The position numbers were made by a program, and so were the translations under genes. A stretch of 32,888 nucleotides of DNA from Candidatus Kapaibacterium sp. (GTDB lineage: Bacteria > Bacteroidota > Ignavibacteria > Kapaibacteriales > UBA4661): assembly GCA_004292595.1 (NCBI GenBank), contig RDXM01000120.1:1-32888 (forward strand), read 5' to 3'. Numbering within the stretch: position 1 is the stretch's first letter; every line of letters starts with the position of its first letter. Under the pieces are notes generated by a model. That model had not been told where the DNA came from. It made no database searches and was given only the letters and a program-made list of their open reading frames with translations. This document shows positions 8,377 to 32,888 of this stretch, one piece after another.

Positions 8377-10335
8377 CTACTGTTGCGGTATGCGGGACGG
8401 AGCGGTCGGCAATTCCACAATAAACGTCGCGCCTTTGCCCAGCTCCGATTCGCACCACACCTTGCCATTCATTGCTTCGACCATTTTTTTTACAATGCTG
8501 AGTCCCAAACCAGTGCTGTGTTCGCCGCCTGTCGGACGCGCCGAAAGGCGAGCAAATTTGCCAAATAATTTTTTCATATCCTCTTCAGAAATGCCCTCGC
8601 CTTCGTCTTGAACCTCAATGCGCACGGCTTCATTTCTTGATTGTATGCGCACAACAACATTTTTGCCCCGTGGAGAATACTTGACCGCATTTGAGATGAC
8701 ATTGTCCAGAACTTGCATCATTGCTTGCTTGTCGGCATGGACGTTTGCATGAGTGCTACTCTGGAAATGAACGCGAATATCTTTCTCTTTTGCACGCTCG
8801 GAATACAGCTCCACAACGGATTGAACGTCGGGAGAAATGTCGTAGTGTGTGCAATGAAGCTGCAAGCCACCGCGCTCTATCGCGTTCACATCCAGCAAAT
8901 TGGTGATGATTTCCGTCATGCGCTCGGCAGCCTTGCCAACTGCTTGCATTTGCTTCAAAATGTCGTCGTCATTCATACGGTCGTAGTAGCGCGTCGTCGT
9001 GCCGACAACCATGATAATATGCGCCAGAGGATTTTTCAAATCATGCGCCGCAATTCCCAAAAACTCATTCTTTTCGCTATTGAGATGCTCCAACTGCAAG
9101 TTTTTCTCCTGCAAGGCTGCGTTGGCAACTTCGATATCGCGTGCCTGTTCTTCCAAGATATTTTGCTGATATTCCAGCGCAAGATTTTTTTCGTTCAATG
9201 TCGTATTTGCTAGCTCAATGTCGGCAGCTTGCTGTCCTAAAAGTTCTTGTTGGCGTAAAATTTCATCGTTTTGCTTTTGCAATTTTCGTTCTGAGCGCAC
9301 TTTGTAGCGATAGCGACTATACAACGCCGCAAAGCCGCCCAGCAGCACCACACCGAGCAGTATCAGGGTTTGTCGGGTTTTTGTTTGTAATTCTTGGTCT
9401 TTCACCAGCCCTTCAATTTGGCGATCTTTGCTCAAGGATTCATACTCGGCTTGCAAACGCGAAATACGCTCAAACTGCTCGCTTGAGCGTAAAGAATCTT
9501 GGGCTTCGGCGGCAAAAATTTTCAGAGAATACGCTTGTTCAAAGTCTTTTTTTGTTGAATAAATACGTGCCAGCACTTCGTAGGAATCGCGTATGTACTG
9601 CTTGAAGTGATGCTGTTTTGCGAGCGCAAGTGCCTTCTGAGCAAGTATCAATGCGGAGTCTAGCCGACCAAGCTGGTGGTAGCTCTCGCTTTGATTCACA
9701 AGAACAGATGTCATATTGCTACTATCGGCAAATTTTTGCGAGAGTATCATTGCCTCGCTCAAGTATTGGAGAGCCTTTTCGGGCATTTTTTTGAAATTAT
9801 AGACGTGTCCTAGATTGCTGAACCCCGTACTTTTTCCTTGTTCATCGTGCGCCTCATCATCGGCTGCTAATGATTCCAATAAAAAGGGTATTGCCTTGTC
9901 GTACTGCGCTATATCCATGTACACAATACCAATGTTGTTCAGAGCGGCAGCTTTGCGCTTGGCATTGTTAATTTTTTTTGCGATGGCAAGCGATCGCTCA
10001 TAAAATTTCACTGCTTCGCCAAAAGCCCCATTTACATACAACGATAGCCCAATAATATTCAACGAGCGAGCAATACCAACGCTATCGCCAAGTTTTTCCG
10101 CTAAGGAAAGACCAAAAGCCGCATATTCACTTGCTTTTTTAGGATTTGTCATGTAAAAAGCAAATGCAATATTATTCAGAGTGCGTACTTTATTGGTGTC
10201 CTCGGGCTGCCCGTGCAGATGCTTGACAAGAAAATCAATCTCCTGCGTTTGTGCCTGAACTCGCGGCAAAGAAGAGCAAATGAAAACCGAGAAAGCAAGC
10301 AATAGAGCGGCTTTCAAATGATATAGATATTCCAT
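8377..10335 (-). CDS. TPR sensor histidine kinase 2
   Basis: This 652-residue sensor kinase has the same plan as kinases 1 and 3. Using the ATG at 10335 gives a clean signal peptide (MEYLYHLKAALLLAF to VQAQ); a longer frame from 10377 would bury it behind 14 extra residues. About six TPR repeats (40-290) are followed by a transmembrane helix (LLGVVLLGGFAALY), a long coiled coil, HisKA with H431 in AHDLKNP, and HATPase_c with VISNAVKYSPRGKN, DEGEGI, KLFGKFARL and GLGLSIVKK. The coiled coil contains a 28-residue unit repeated back to back (residues 362-389 and 390-417; pattern QAxDIExANxxLxEKN), exactly four heptads; kinases 1 and 3 have one such unit. No response regulator is adjacent. Upstream, on the opposite orientation, lies copy 3 of an intergenic repeat. 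Confidence 0.92.
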   Translation of the reverse strand: MEYLYHLKAALLLAFSVFICSSLPRVQAQTQEIDFLVKHLHGQPEDTNKVRTLNNIAFAFYMTNPKKASEYAAFGLSLAEKLGDSVGIARSLNIIGLSLYVNGAFGEAVKFYERSLAIAKKINNAKRKAAALNNIGIVYMDIAQYDKAIPFLLESLAADDEAHDEQGKSTGFSNLGHVYNFKKMPEKALQYLSEAMILSQKFADSSNMTSVLVNQSESYHQLGRLDSALILAQKALALAKQHHFKQYIRDSYEVLARIYSTKKDFEQAYSLKIFAAEAQDSLRSSEQFERISRLQAEYESLSKDRQIEGLVKDQELQTKTRQTLILLGVVLLGGFAALYSRYRYKVRSERKLQKQNDEILRQQELLGQQAADIELANTTLNEKNLALEYQQNILEEQARDIEVANAALQEKNLQLEHLNSEKNEFLGIAAHDLKNPLAHIIMVVGTTTRYYDRMNDDDILKQMQAVGKAAERMTEIITNLLDVNAIERGGLQLHCTHYDISPDVQSVVELYSERAKEKDIRVHFQSSTHANVHADKQAMMQVLDNVISNAVKYSPRGKNVVVRIQSRNEAVRIEVQDEGEGISEEDMKKLFGKFARLSARPTGGEHSTGLGLSIVKKMVEAMNGKVWCESELGKGATFIVELPTAPSRIPQQ

Positions 10336-23983: not shown

Positions 23984-26083
23984 ATGCTACTTACCTCGAA
24001 CACAAATCGCACACTAAGAAACTTGCAAGGTTATTCTTTGCCGAGCAGTGTTGCTAGGATATCTACTTTTTGGGGAACAGTAGTTTTTTTGATACTCTTT
24101 GGTGCGCACCACGGACTATCACAATATCACATCCTTGAAAAGCGACATCACGAGTTGCGTTTACCTTCGGAACGCAATACACTGGAAGATTCTCTGTTGC
24201 CAATGTTGCCTCATGTACAGGATACGACGAAAGTGGCAATGCTGAACGCGCTGTCGTGGTCGTATAGAGGAGCAAATTTCTTGCTTGCTATGAAATATGC
24301 GCAAGAAGGAGCGCAAATTGCAGCAAACTTGGGCTATACACGTGTACGAGCAGAAAATTGCAATTTTATTGGTATCATTTACCGCAATGTCGGCGATTAT
24401 GAAAAAGCAATGGCGTATTTTCAAGAGGCGCGAGCTATTGCCGAAAAACAAAACTATAAGATAGAATTAGGATATGCACTGAATAATATTGGTGATGTTT
24501 ACAAGTATCTTGGCAATTACAGTCTTGCAAGGGACTATGTGCAGCGTGCACTGAATATTTTTACTGAGTTGAATCATTCTTCTGGCTTGAATTATGGTTA
24601 TTTTCGCATGGCAGAAATAGCACAACTCGAGAAAAAATTTCTTTCAGCTGTGAGCTTTTTTGAGCTTTCCCGGCGATATGATATTTCCAAAGATAATCCT
24701 GCGTGGCGTGCTGGCAATTTTCTCTCAACTGGGCAAGCATATTTAGCAGCAAACGAGTATTCGTCAGCTTTACAGGCTTTTTTTGATGCAGATAACTCTC
24801 TCGCGGATTCGTTGTCCTACAATGAAGATATTCTCACGATTTCGTACATTCAAAAAGGCAAAGCATACAGAGGCTTACACAATCTTGATTCTGCGCTGTT
24901 TTGTTTGGAAGAAGGCTTGCGCCGCTCCCAAAGCCGACAGATGCAGACAAATATTCGGGAAGCAGCAAAAGAGCTTGCGTACGTGTATAGTGATATAGGA
25001 GATTATCGCAAAGTGTCATATTTTCAAGCGATACAAATGACAGCGGCGGATTCGTTATTGCATCAGTCCGAGCAGCAGGAAATTGAGCGACTTGGTGCAA
25101 AATATGAATTAGCAAAACAGCAAGCAGACCTCGACTCGCTCCGAACTGTGCAAGACCGCCAACAAACGATAGGTATTGCATTGATACTGGGAATTATATT
25201 GCTCATACTTATTGCGTTGCTTCTCTTGCGAAATATTCGCTCTGAACGTCTTGCCAATGCTGAGATTATGCGCCAGCAGAGTATATTAGAACACCAATCG
25301 TTGGAAATAGAAATGAATAATACCATGCTTTTAGAGCGAAATTCTTTGCTGTCTATTTTGACCCAAGAAAAAACCGATCTCATGGAGATTGTTTCTCACG
25401 ACCTAAAGAATCCAATTAGTGCGGTGCGCGGGCTTGCCGAGCTTATTCGATATAATTTCGTCGAGGAGGAAAAAATATCGCAAACGGCGGAGCAAATTAT
25501 TCAAACGTCGAATAAAATGTTTCAACTTGTTACAAATGTACTTGATTTGAACAGGCTCGAAGAAGGCAGACAACAATTTAATCTCATTGAGTTTGATATT
25601 ACGTCATTAGTAGAATTTTGTGTTGAGCAGTATCGGCAGCAAGCAGCAGCAAAAAACATTACAATTTATTATCAAAATACGTCTGAAGGTCTCCATGTAC
25701 TTGCCGATGAGCAAGCGTGTATTCAAATTCTGGATAATCTTCTATCGAATGCTGTAAAATACTCACAGCATGGAACGCAAATGTCTGTGCGCATAGCATC
25801 CAGCTTTGTAGTGAATGATAGCAATAGAGAAAAAAACGTACAATATCTCCGCATTGAAGTGCAAAACGAAGGCGAAGGTATTAGCGCACAAGATATGCAA
25901 AAACTCTTTGGAAAATTCGCTCGCCTTTCTGCACGACCAACGGGCGGCGAACACAGCACAGGACTGGGACTCAGCATTGTTAAAAAAATGGTCGAAGCAA
26001 TGAATGGGCGTGTCTGGTGCGAATCAGAGCTTGGCAAAGGCGCGACGTTTATTGTGGAATTGCCTCTCTCTGTGCCAGCATAA
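23984..26083 (+). CDS. TPR sensor histidine kinase 3
   Basis: This 699-residue kinase has the domain order of kinases 1 and 2. The N-terminal stretch is longer before its hydrophobic signal segment (about 29-46, FWGTVVFLILFGAHHGLSQ). About seven TPR-like repeats (70-375) include clear ones at ALNNIGDVYKYLGNYSLARDYVQRALNI. A transmembrane helix (GIALILGIILLILIALLLL) precedes a coiled coil, HisKA with H472 in SHDLKNP, and HATPase_c with LLSNAVKYSQHG, NEGEGI, KLFGKFARL and GLGLSIVKK. In the G1 box the first residue is N rather than the usual D (QNEGEG versus QDEGEG in the paralogues). This should be examined, because that aspartate contacts the ATP adenine; the change may weaken nucleotide binding. 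The intergenic repeat copy 1 lies just upstream. A lipoprotein gene follows 77 nt downstream. Confidence 0.92.
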   Translation: MLLTSNTNRTLRNLQGYSLPSSVARISTFWGTVVFLILFGAHHGLSQYHILEKRHHELRLPSERNTLEDSLLPMLPHVQDTTKVAMLNALSWSYRGANFLLAMKYAQEGAQIAANLGYTRVRAENCNFIGIIYRNVGDYEKAMAYFQEARAIAEKQNYKIELGYALNNIGDVYKYLGNYSLARDYVQRALNIFTELNHSSGLNYGYFRMAEIAQLEKKFLSAVSFFELSRRYDISKDNPAWRAGNFLSTGQAYLAANEYSSALQAFFDADNSLADSLSYNEDILTISYIQKGKAYRGLHNLDSALFCLEEGLRRSQSRQMQTNIREAAKELAYVYSDIGDYRKVSYFQAIQMTAADSLLHQSEQQEIERLGAKYELAKQQADLDSLRTVQDRQQTIGIALILGIILLILIALLLLRNIRSERLANAEIMRQQSILEHQSLEIEMNNTMLLERNSLLSILTQEKTDLMEIVSHDLKNPISAVRGLAELIRYNFVEEEKISQTAEQIIQTSNKMFQLVTNVLDLNRLEEGRQQFNLIEFDITSLVEFCVEQYRQQAAAKNITIYYQNTSEGLHVLADEQACIQILDNLLSNAVKYSQHGTQMSVRIASSFVVNDSNREKNVQYLRIEVQNEGEGISAQDMQKLFGKFARLSARPTGGEHSTGLGLSIVKKMVEAMNGRVWCESELGKGATFIVELPLSVPA

Positions 26084-28631: not shown

Positions 28632-29054
28632 ATGGGACTACGAGAAAAACGCACCCTCAACGAAATAAAAACTGTCGCGCAGCCCAGATACCAAGCAGAG
28701 CTGGATGAAGCAGTTGGATGGCATATTCCCATGAATCTTGACTGGGATTCAATGCCAGAATTGGAAGCTCCAATAGAAGGATTTATCAGAGACCAGTATG
28801 AGTACAGCTTTGCTCTTCTCGTAAAAATAATGAAAGCTATTGTTGTGGACGATATTGGCAAAGATGCGCTGCGAAGCCGTGTGCAATCTATTCTTTTTAT
28901 CAATTACAACAAAACTGGCGCCGACACTGGCGAGAGAAAAACAGAGATTAAGAATGGATGCCTCGAAATTCACTGCGGCTGGGGCAGTTATTCTTCGGAA
29001 TACTACGATAACTATAATAATGAATTTCAAAAACTAATTGAGGATTTGCTATGA
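28632..29054 (+). CDS. Unrecognised small protein A of a two-gene unit
   Basis: This 140-residue protein has no signal peptide or membrane helix and belongs to no family I recognise. The ATG at 28632 is preferred; longer frames from 28560 (TTG) or 28599 (ATG) add a hydrophobic, cysteine-containing stretch of weak coding character. Residues about 20-92 (RYQAELDEAVGWHIPMNLDW to RSRVQSILFINYN) match the C-terminal domain of the overlapping gene B: LDWDSMP (W38) corresponds to VEWETLP (W153), and DIGKDALRSRV to DTGRTALLSVK, each followed by an alternating hydrophobic strand. Its stop codon overlaps the start of gene B by 4 nt (ATGA), which implies translational coupling and near 1:1 production. 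The C-terminus has a Y- and N-rich loop (WGSYSSEYYDNYNN). Confidence 0.72.
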   Translation: MGLREKRTLNEIKTVAQPRYQAELDEAVGWHIPMNLDWDSMPELEAPIEGFIRDQYEYSFALLVKIMKAIVVDDIGKDALRSRVQSILFINYNKTGADTGERKTEIKNGCLEIHCGWGSYSSEYYDNYNNEFQKLIEDLL

Positions 29055-29773
29055 GTAGCAACGAATGGAACTCCACACTGGCGAAAATTCCTGTTCGCTC
29101 GGTACGCTCAATTTTAAGCGACCTTGCCGAAGTACGGATGCAATTCAATCAAGGACGAAAAGTAACGTTGCCGATTGTACAAGTACATTTATCAAGCGGC
29201 GCAACGTTGGAGGGATACGTGATTGCGTTGGATTCGCACCGCAATCAGGAAACACTTGTCCTGCATTCGCCACGCGGCGAATATCGTCTGCCACATCAAG
29301 ATTTGATTTATATTGAAGCCCGCTTCATTATCGGTATTACGGTCTTAGACGCACAAAAAGTTGCATCCCAGCTTAGTGGTGGTGCGGTTGTAGAGGTTTC
29401 TGCCGAGCAGCAAAGCATCTCCAAACTGGACGTAAAACGCTTTATTTCGCAGTATCTTGAAGACTTTAAGCAGCTTGAAAACATTGAGATTTCTTGCGAT
29501 GTAGAATGGGAAACGCTTCCAGCAGGCAACAGCACCTATTTGAACTTGAAAGATGAAATCGCAGCATTTTTTGATGCGTTGAGCGAAATCATGCGCTACG
29601 ACACCGGACGCACCGCTCTTCTGTCGGTCAAGAAGATTATGATTCGTGCTGGAAATGCCCTCGAAGCAAGCAAAAACGACGATACGCTGACGGTGCAAAG
29701 TGTGTATCTTGATGCACCGCGCCGCGTGAGCGACCGCATTGCCATTCAAGCAGCGATTGAAAAAGCCTTGTAA
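29051..29773 (+). CDS. Unrecognised protein B with Sm-like N-terminal domain
   Basis: This 240-residue cytoplasmic protein has two domains. The N-terminal part (about 15-100) reads like an Sm/LSm fold: a helix (SVRSILSDLAEVRMQFNQGRK) then the Sm1 pattern VQVHLSSGATLEGYVIALD (43-61), with hydrophobic residues alternating, L47-x-x-G50, L53-x-G55 and D61, and a second strand region LVLHSPRGEYRLPHQDLIYI resembling Sm2. A low-complexity linker (about 100-125) leads to a C-terminal domain (about 127-240) that is homologous to protein A (W153, D184-x-G186). It follows gene A with an ATGA overlap. The Sm-like reading is mine, from the motif, and would imply RNA binding or ring-forming. The pairing suggests an obligate complex of A with B. 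No known system matches. Confidence 0.72.
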   Translation: MSSNEWNSTLAKIPVRSVRSILSDLAEVRMQFNQGRKVTLPIVQVHLSSGATLEGYVIALDSHRNQETLVLHSPRGEYRLPHQDLIYIEARFIIGITVLDAQKVASQLSGGAVVEVSAEQQSISKLDVKRFISQYLEDFKQLENIEISCDVEWETLPAGNSTYLNLKDEIAAFFDALSEIMRYDTGRTALLSVKKIMIRAGNALEASKNDDTLTVQSVYLDAPRRVSDRIAIQAAIEKAL

Positions 29774-29927: not shown

Positions 29928-30030
29928 ACTGAAAAAGGTTTGTTGCTTCAGATGTAGTCCGCCTTCAAGGCGGACTACATCTCAACTCCTTCACGTTTCG
30001 ATGTGCAGTTTTTACCCATTTTTAGTATGC
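29928..30030 (+). repeat. Dispersed intergenic repeat, copy 2, interrupted by a palindrome
   Basis: It has the blocks of copy 1, AAAAGGTTTG, AGATGTA, TCAACTCCTTCAC, TTTCGAT and TGCAGTTTTTACCC then TTTTTAGTAT, but between AGATGTA and TCA the 4-nt spacer of copy 1 is replaced by a longer palindromic sequence. It lies 81 nt upstream of the E1 start. Confidence 0.65.
29951..29981. repeat. 31-nt perfect palindrome
   Basis: GATGTAGTCCGCCTT and AAGGCGGACTACATC are perfect reverse complements with a single C between them. It would fold into a 15-bp hairpin in RNA on either strand, or a cruciform in DNA. Confidence 0.95.
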
Positions 30031-30111: not shown

Positions 30112-32319
30112 ATGTCCAAGAAAAACGCCCCTGTTGCGGCGAAAAAGTCCGCACAAGTGCCTTCGGCAAAAAATGGCAATGGCAATAGTAATGGCAACGG
30201 AAATGGTAGTGCTGCTGCGCCGAAAAATGGTGCGCCCGCTCCGCAAGCCACTGCGAATGCGGCTTCTGGGAAATTTGAAAAAGGCTACACCTTCGATACC
30301 ACGGGCTTCGACAAAGCAACTGTTGTCGATTGGTATCGCATGATGCACTTGGGGCGCAAGCTCGACGAAAAAGCAGCAAATTACCTGAAGCTCGCAAAAG
30401 GCTGGTCGTATCACGCCCCGTGCGCTGGACACGAAGGTATCCAGCTTGCCATTGGTAAAATTTTTCGTCCCGCAAAAGATTATTTTTATCCGTATTACCG
30501 CGATTTCCTCTCGTGCATTGCGGCGGGAATTTCGCCCGATGAAATCATTATGAATGGTCTGAGCAAAGCGGCGGACGTGTCGAGCGGCGGCAGAAATATG
30601 TCGAACCACTTTGCAAAAATTCCACTTCGCATTCAGAACCGTTCTGCGCTCACGGGCAATCATTCGCAAATGGCAGCAGGAACAGCGCGAGCAATCAAGA
30701 AGTATAATGGCGATGAGCTGGTAATTTATTCTGGCGGCGAATCTGCTTGCTCGGAAGGCTATTTCTACGAATCGGTGAATGGTGCGTGCCGCGAGAAGTT
30801 GCCTGTTATCTACGTGATTCAAAACAACGGTTTCGGTATTTCTGTGCCAGTGCGCGAACAAAGTGCGAACACACGCATTTCCGATAACTTCAGAGGCTTT
30901 GGCAATCTGCTCATTATCAACGTGGACGGACGCGATCCCTTTGCTTCCTATCGCGCACTCCAAGAAGCGCAGAAATACGTGCTTGCTGGCAAAGGTCCCG
31001 CAATGGTTCACGCCGAGTGCGACCGCTTGCTTTCGCACTCCAACTCCGATAATCAAGACCTCTACCGCACCAAAGAAGAAATCGCCGAAATGCTCCCACG
31101 CGACCCCATTCCGAGAATGCGAGCAACCGTTTTAGAAAAAGGCTTCGCAACCGAAGAGCAGCTCGTGGCAATGGAAGCGCAAAACCGCGAGGACATTTTT
31201 GCCGCAGCCGACCGCGTAGAGCCACTTCCCATGCCCGACCCGTCGGAAAACGAGCAATTCCTCATCCCTGAGCCACTCGTCGGCTACAACCACGATGATA
31301 CCTTCGTTAGCGACCCAAGCGCACCGCAAATCACCTTCCGCGAGGGTGTCAATCACGGGATGCGCACGGAGTTTCGTCGCAATCCGAACACATTCCTTTG
31401 GGGACAAGACGTTGCTTCCAAGGAAAAGCAAGGTATTTTCAACGTTCCAAAAGGCTTGATGACCGAATTTGGTAATGAGCGTATTTTCAATGCGCCGATT
31501 GCAGAGGACTTCATTGTCGGCACGGCGAATGGTTTCTGTCGCTACCGCGATGATATTCGTGTGGTGGTCGAAGGTGCGGAATTTGCTGATTACTTCTGGC
31601 CTGCAATGGAAGCATACATCGAATGTACGCATGAATACTGGCGCACGAAAGGGCAGTATTCGCCGAACATGGTGATTCGCCTTGCAAGCGGCGGCTACAT
31701 TCAAGGTGGCTTGTATCACTCACAAAACCTCGACGCACTCTTCGCGCACCTTCCGGGCGCACGCGTGGTCTGTCCTGCCTTTGCTGATGATGCCGTTGGC
31801 TTGATGCGCCATGCAATTCGTTCTAAAGGACTTACGGTTTTTATCGAACCCAAATTCTTGTATAATTATCGTCCAACATCAACATCCATTCCCGACGATG
31901 ATTTCATGATTCCCTTTGGCAAAGCAAAGACGCGCCGTGCTGGACGCGATTTGACCATTATTTCCTACGGCAATGCGATTCATCTTTCCTTGCAAGCGGC
32001 AGAAACCATATCAAAAGAAGGAATTGATGCGGAAGTGATTGACCTGCGCTCGCTTGCGCCGTGGGACAAGCAAACCGTGTTTGCATCGGTTCGGAAAACA
32101 AATCGTGTGCTGGTAGCGCATGAACACTACAAAACAGGCGGTTTTGGCGGCGAAATTTCTTCCAGCATTCAAGAAGAATGTTTTGAATACTTGGACGCAC
32201 CCGTTGGGCGTGTTGCCTCGAAAGATATTCCCGTCGGCTTTGCGAAGGCACTTGAAATGGACATCTTGCTCTCTGCCGACAAAATTGCAGAAGCTGCACG
32301 GAAAGTGATGAAGTATTAG
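30112..32319 (+). CDS. 2-oxoacid dehydrogenase E1, alpha-beta fusion
   Basis: This 735-residue thiamine-diphosphate enzyme joins E1 alpha and E1 beta in one chain and should catalyse oxidative decarboxylation of a branched-chain 2-oxoacid (or pyruvate), feeding a separate E2/E3. Residues 1-60 form a low-complexity tail of A, K, N, G and S, including an NG-rich run. The alpha part (about 70-370) has the TPP/Mg motif as GES (209-211), then 26 residues, then N238-N239; the family norm is GDG-x26-NN. The beta part (about 410-735) has the catalytic glutamate E465 in APIAEDFIVG and the LASGGYIQGGLYHSQ loop; the conserved SYGNAIHLSLQAAETI and LAPWDKQTV match E1 beta C-terminal regions. An AAGGA sequence lies 7 nt before the ATG. 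No E2 or E3 gene is adjacent in the window. A terminator follows. Confidence 0.92.
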   Translation: MSKKNAPVAAKKSAQVPSAKNGNGNSNGNGNGSAAAPKNGAPAPQATANAASGKFEKGYTFDTTGFDKATVVDWYRMMHLGRKLDEKAANYLKLAKGWSYHAPCAGHEGIQLAIGKIFRPAKDYFYPYYRDFLSCIAAGISPDEIIMNGLSKAADVSSGGRNMSNHFAKIPLRIQNRSALTGNHSQMAAGTARAIKKYNGDELVIYSGGESACSEGYFYESVNGACREKLPVIYVIQNNGFGISVPVREQSANTRISDNFRGFGNLLIINVDGRDPFASYRALQEAQKYVLAGKGPAMVHAECDRLLSHSNSDNQDLYRTKEEIAEMLPRDPIPRMRATVLEKGFATEEQLVAMEAQNREDIFAAADRVEPLPMPDPSENEQFLIPEPLVGYNHDDTFVSDPSAPQITFREGVNHGMRTEFRRNPNTFLWGQDVASKEKQGIFNVPKGLMTEFGNERIFNAPIAEDFIVGTANGFCRYRDDIRVVVEGAEFADYFWPAMEAYIECTHEYWRTKGQYSPNMVIRLASGGYIQGGLYHSQNLDALFAHLPGARVVCPAFADDAVGLMRHAIRSKGLTVFIEPKFLYNYRPTSTSIPDDDFMIPFGKAKTRRAGRDLTIISYGNAIHLSLQAAETISKEGIDAEVIDLRSLAPWDKQTVFASVRKTNRVLVAHEHYKTGGFGGEISSSIQEECFEYLDAPVGRVASKDIPVGFAKALEMDILLSADKIAEAARKVMKY

Positions 32320-32439: not shown

Positions 32440-32888
32440 TGGGTCGTGTCCTAAGAGTGTTGCTATGTAGTATTCAAGTCTATTTCTAGGCATGAAAAGA
32501 AAAGAAAGCACAAAAAAGTCAGGAAAACGGCGTAGTTTTCTGACATGGCTTGTACAGAAATCATTCTCGTCTGCTGTCCTGACTGCAACAGCGAAAAGAT
32601 AAAACGCAACGGAAAAAGCAAGATCTACCAACAACGGTACTATTGCCAATGGTGCAAACGCAGTTTCCAACGACACTATCAGAGGAAAGCAGGACACCAG
32701 AGGTGCGGAGCATGGTCGTTTCCATGACCATGCGTAAGAGTGGCATCCGTGACATTGAAGAGGTCTTGGATATTCACCGTGATAGCGTCTCATGCCCAGC
32801 AATCCGCCGTGCAGCCGATGCCATGCCCAGCACGCCAGCACTCAAAGCCCGCGTGGTACGCACGGCTGAATTGGATGAGTTTTGGTCA
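32440..32888 (+). mobile_element. IS1-family insertion sequence, left part, cut by window edge
   Basis: A transposase of the IS1 family begins at 32545 and continues to the window end. The left boundary is not certain: the sequence change after the E1 terminator, around GGGTCGTGTCCTAAGAG (32441), is the likely left end. No right end or target duplication can be seen. Confidence 0.55.
32545..32888 (+). pseudogene. IS1-family transposase, frameshifted
   Basis: The first frame (32545-32727) encodes an InsA-like zinc ribbon: VCCPDCNSEKIKRNGKSK and YYCQWCKRSFQRHY, with the CxxC...CxxC metal site usual in IS1. This frame stops after about 60 codons. The continuation is in the +2 frame from about 32690: TPEVRSMVVSMTMRKSGIRD and IEEVLDIHRDSV, the InsA helix-turn-helix region, then TAELDEFWS, which matches the start of the InsB catalytic part. 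Two frames therefore must join between zinc ribbon and HTH, earlier than the programmed shift of classical IS1 (which lies at the end of insA), and I see no A6C slippery site there. The transposase is therefore likely disabled by a one-base deletion or two-base insertion, unless a sequencing error is involved. Confidence 0.75.

Follow-up and report, generated by a model that had tools for sequence, protein, structure and literature searches.

The window analyzed here, which is the whole 32,888-nt stretch of DNA, contains two overlapping genes, A and B, whose features are listed in Table 1. Their coordinates and the 4-nt overlap were checked on the sequence and are correct as they stood in the first-pass annotation.

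Table 1 Features of the A-B gene pair
Feature	Position	Strand	Description	Basis
Gene A	28632..29054	+	140 aa; one alpha/beta domain of an unnamed family, standing alone	ORF, family alignment, dN/dS, homologues
Gene B	29051..29773	+	240 aa; N-terminal Sm-like domain (probable) and C-terminal A-like domain	ORF, homologues, dN/dS
ATGA start/stop overlap of A and B	29051..29054	+		sequence
Sm-like segment of B	29174..29350	+	residues ~42-100; Sm1 43-61, Sm2-like 85-100	
A-like C-terminal domain of B	29432..29770	+	residues 128-240	hhalign, reciprocal profile matches

Both genes are real and constrained by purifying selection, as the dN/dS of A is 0.094 and that of B 0.047 between the window genome (G000) and another genome of the same genus (G005). 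The closest named record for B comes from an Ignavibacteria MAG and is 92% identical. Scans of A and B against Pfam, NCBIfam, PHROGs and PADLOC gave no credible match, HrcA and MefEN2 matches being rejected as sub-threshold noise, and neither protein falls within any Pfam or NCBIfam family. No named system with the A-B layout was found. An Rfam scan across the A-B region gave no match, and promoter and terminator scans at A-B gave scores not above those of shuffles.

Downstream of B lies a near-perfect inverted repeat (29947-29985) with 19-nt arms and a 1-nt spacer, GATGTAGTCCGCCTT/AAGGCGGACTACATC. It occurs once in the window and, among the compared loci, only in those spanning the same place. 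Farther downstream, the alpha and beta parts of a dehydrogenase E1 are fused in a single gene at 30112-32319 (E1_dh, Transket_pyr, Transketolase_C), and a short ORF at 32545-32727 has an InsA N-terminal zinc ribbon (PF03811), so that an IS element probably lies at the contig end.

The first-pass annotation had described a domain of A and the C-terminal half of B as related. Single-sequence BLASTP of A against B gives no match while profile matches are significant, so the homology is visible to profiles only. When A-only and B-only profiles were built from relatives and searched in a set of several hundred ORFs, the A profile matched B residues 133-229 at E 2.5e-6, and the B profile matched A at E 8.6e-7 and other A genes down to ~1e-10. 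In whole-genome searches, the B profile recovered A genes at up to 2.6e-9. Alignment of the B C-terminus with the A family by hhalign gave Prob 98.4 and E 4.6e-15 over 108 columns. These profile comparisons establish homology between A and the C-terminal half of B, and the earlier observation holds. The common domain is longer than had been noted, as A ~20-140 pairs with B ~128-240, rather than A ending at ~92. The family motif of the A domain is MGLxEKR...DxDWDxL...DxMGKEAL..., and a PDB search with the A family profile found no credible relative.

An internal gene duplication had also been proposed. A maximum-likelihood tree was built from 39 A domains and 24 B domains. It is unrooted and has some long B branches, and the two sets form separate clades in it with support of 98/97, a separation recovered in 98% of bootstrap replicates. 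No B C-terminal domain falls among the A domains, so the split is old and common to the loci, not a duplication at the window locus. Thus, the paralogy of A and B stands, but it points to a single ancient event rather than a local one, and a recent local duplication of A into B is ruled out by the tree.

The N-terminal half of B was examined for likeness to the Sm fold. The Sm1-type pattern noted earlier at residues 43-61 is present, and nearly all of the 22 B homologues compared share its form, hxhxhxxGxxhxGhhhxh. When a B N-terminal profile was searched against 177,635 PDB sequences, four of the six matches at E 10 or better were Sm proteins (three Sm D3 and one archaeal Sm), which headed the list and whose alignments cover the Sm region. 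Their E values are about 0.5-1.7, so no single one is significant. The full-length B profile has Sm D3 as its top PDB match at E 0.048. By hhalign, the B N-terminus scored 19.5 against an LSm/Hfq alignment, as compared with a maximum of 14.9 in 300 column shuffles and 11.2 for the reversed alignment; this alignment is small, E. coli Hfq and AF-Sm1 being those of its sequences that were confirmed against PDB, and the local match spans 23-41 columns only.

A blind six-frame search of the 4.6-Mb genome with the Pfam Hfq model returned B and nothing else up to E 1 (E 0.2, 13.7 bits against a cut-off of 27), and the Hfq-model match in G005 is likewise B. No Hfq above the Pfam cut-off was found in the 41 genomes searched. 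The LSM and Hfq models never exceeded their cut-offs in Pfam scans of B and 17 homologues, nor did any member in an LSM model search of relatives, while single B homologues gave a weak Rof match (one, E 0.02) and a weak LSM12 match. AlphaFold2 models, with pLDDT of 33 and 41, were too poor for use; the element order in the B model (H18-33, E43-46, E52-57, E68-73, E76-81, E89-99) is compatible with the Sm topology, but its pLDDT is 33. With these weak lines converging, the N-terminal half of B is probably an Sm-like barrel. There is moderate evidence from the sequences that this part is exclusive to B, as the first-pass annotation had it, and the B N-terminus gave no hhalign match to the A family.

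It had further been suggested that an A-B complex may bind RNA. In the window, the B loop D61-S-H63-R-N65 matches D-x-H-x-N of archaeal Sm proteins, and four congeners have V-R-T-S/N at the Sm2 position where Sm D3 has V-R-G-S. The B homologues of another family, f32, keep neither the uridine-binding loop (D-x-H/M-x-N) nor the Sm2 Arg-Gly, and their Sm-like domains are neutral or acidic, with pI of 4.7-7.8 and mostly below 7. As the contact residues are not kept and most of the domains are neutral or acidic, the B family overall is not marked as RNA-binding, and the suggestion is left without support. A homologues of Methylobacterium, Roseomonas, Shinella and G184 have apparent signal sequences at their start, which suggests that the common domain itself is not tied to RNA.

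The distribution of the pair was followed within and outside the window genus. Of eight genomes in the genus, six have B and two have A. Four congeners (G007, G006, G001 and G003) keep B with A not detectable. What remains of A in G007 is its final codons (DNYNQEFQHLIEDLL-stop), which overlap the B start; G006 and G001 have degraded traces of the A 3′ end, and G003 has no clear remnant. G005 retains the ATGA overlap, and in the four congeners without A a stop likewise overlaps the B start (..ATGA). B in these congeners has dN/dS of 0.03-0.08 where computable, indicating strong purifying selection. To judge from these remnants, A was most likely lost in G007, G006 and G001 while B stayed under strong constraint. 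A is thus not strictly required for the role of B in the four congeners, and the idea of an obligate A-B heteromer appears weakened by constrained B genes that lack a detectable A, and by the many genomes with A but no B.

Beyond the genus, searches recovered B from 20 genomes of f32, which judged by gene content is probably Flavobacteriaceae, and in shortened form from G607 of a third family. A lies beside B or within two genes of it in 20 of these 21 genomes, the two being ~41 kb apart in G878, so that the pair is conserved and usually adjacent. The order is mostly A followed by B on the same strand, with convergent genes in six genomes and B first in G751, and the A/B junctions are tight or overlapping in many loci. 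A without B occurs in G140, G184, G363, G697 and G794. It is also carried by plasmids from four bacterial genera (Aureibacter, Shinella, Methylobacterium and Roseomonas) and by megaplasmids of haloarchaea; A homologues are thus found in Bacteroidota, Alphaproteobacteria and haloarchaea. Viral contigs and phage collections had no relatives of A or B, and PADLOC models of toxin-antitoxin and known defence systems did not match them.

Of 28 loci, 14 have a TPR histidine kinase, recognized by sequence similarity, no more than three genes away from A or B, which is a raw count where such kinases are frequent. The assignment was confirmed by Pfam wherever scanned, and some loci have no such kinase nearby. 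A LytTR or LuxR regulator adjoins the kinase. In six genomes (G229, G342, G352, G468, G868 and G920), a TPR histidine kinase and then a regulator precede A and B; after B come another A copy, which has a long extension at its C-terminus, and a conserved gene of ~500 aa. In two of the six, one extra gene separates A from B. Pfam identifies the regulator of G229 as LytTR, the extension of its A copy as DUF6882, and its last gene as an M48 peptidase with TerB; the cluster genes of the other five genomes were assigned by likeness to G229. In a second locus type, A has a TPR kinase and a LuxR-type regulator nearby, and B adjoins a TssD/Hcp-like gene (by Pfam in G345 and by likeness in other loci). 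The remaining neighbors differ widely among loci.

Several further observations concern these neighborhoods. The 33-kb window holds three related TPR histidine kinases, two recognized by similarity (767-2749 and 8377-10335) and one confirmed by Pfam (23984-26083). At L060:9567-10799, an A domain is fused to DUF6882, and the gene after it encodes an M48 peptidase that also carries a TerB domain. A lipoprotein-like gene of ~320 aa without Pfam match lies between A and B at L061:9344-10303 and L126:7423-8394, and genes of similar size and kind were seen near A, by eye only, in L066-L068, L122 and L123. Literature searches on DUF6882, on TerB with M48, and on Sm-like proteins with histidine kinases in Flavobacteria returned no papers.

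A and B are an old paralogous pair of usually neighboring genes for proteins taken to be cytoplasmic, A having the single domain and B the same domain with a probable Sm-like beta-barrel in front. Our preferred reading, held tentatively, is that an Sm-fold B serves with A as a protein adaptor in two-component-linked signalling or stress response. A and the A-like half of B would associate through the common domain, while the barrel may be mainly a protein-binding module contacting another protein, by analogy with Rof. The translational overlap, where present, would keep the two proteins in step, and the neighboring kinases may be the ones to which the pair is linked.

Other explanations were weighed against the same data. 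The Sm likeness could be convergent, the pair being real with the B N-terminus another small beta-barrel of SH3, WYL or RimP type. Every Sm match stays under curated cut-offs and the local hhalign match is short, as this explanation expects, but several independent searches return Sm, Hfq, LSM12 and Rof, all of them Sm-fold families, over the same region, making it somewhat unlikely. We consider it unlikely that B is an Sm-ring RNA-binding protein substituting for Hfq and that A-B is a post-transcriptional regulator, as the first-pass annotation proposed. That B is the best Hfq-model match in a genome whose relatives also lack an Hfq above cut-off, that the window loop and the Sm2-position motif of the four congeners resemble those of Sm proteins, and that Rof and Hfq are of one fold all speak for such a role; the unconserved contact residues and neutral or acidic domains in f32, and the apparent signal sequences on A homologues of Alphaproteobacteria and G184, speak against it.

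A and B may instead be ordinary housekeeping paralogues, with kinase proximity a by-product of kinase abundance. The three TPR kinases in the window alone and the wide variation of other neighbors would fit, whereas a kinase with a regulator stands beside A in at least three gene orders (the LytTR cluster, the LuxR cluster, and kinase-A without B), and we regard this account as about equally unlikely. Least probable is an effector or toxin with its neutralizer, patchily lost and gained, in which A is dispensable and B retained. Patchy distribution, congeners that lost A and kept B, TssD/Hcp-like genes near B in several loci and plasmid-borne A homologues would suit it; on the other hand, A stands alone in many genomes, it is a paralogue of B itself under purifying selection, and PADLOC, viral and phage links are absent.

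On the boldest reading, B might found an Sm-fold family in Bacteroidota lineages without detectable Hfq, and A-B might form a novel regulatory complex that binds RNA or protein and acts together with two-component systems, which is conceivable but doubtful. An Sm-like protein that is conserved and has its own partner gene would, if true, offer a specific candidate for the regulatory machinery that is missing where Hfq is not detected. Because the A domain is widespread in Bacteroidota, Alphaproteobacteria and haloarchaea and has no Pfam or NCBIfam entry, a name for it would allow many hypothetical proteins to be annotated and would give a testable link to TPR histidine kinases.

Among known systems, DUF6882 (PF21813) and the M48 peptidase with TerB share a cluster with the pair in several genomes, and DUF6882 is fused to one A copy, whereas both are absent beside A-B in the window. 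Sm/LSm and Hfq proteins (PF01423, PF17209) resemble the B N-terminus in the Sm1-type hydrophobic and glycine pattern, in an Sm2-like strand, and in a helix predicted ahead of Sm1 by the low-confidence model. B differs from them in scoring under every curated cut-off, in its unconserved RNA-contact residues, and in having its Sm-like part fused to an A-like domain and paired with a second gene. Rof/YaeO (PF07073) has neither this two-domain architecture nor a partner gene, but it offers the likeness of an Sm fold with a protein target, to which the weak Rof match of one B homologue may be added: Rof has an Sm fold and works through binding to the Rho protein (PMC11018626).
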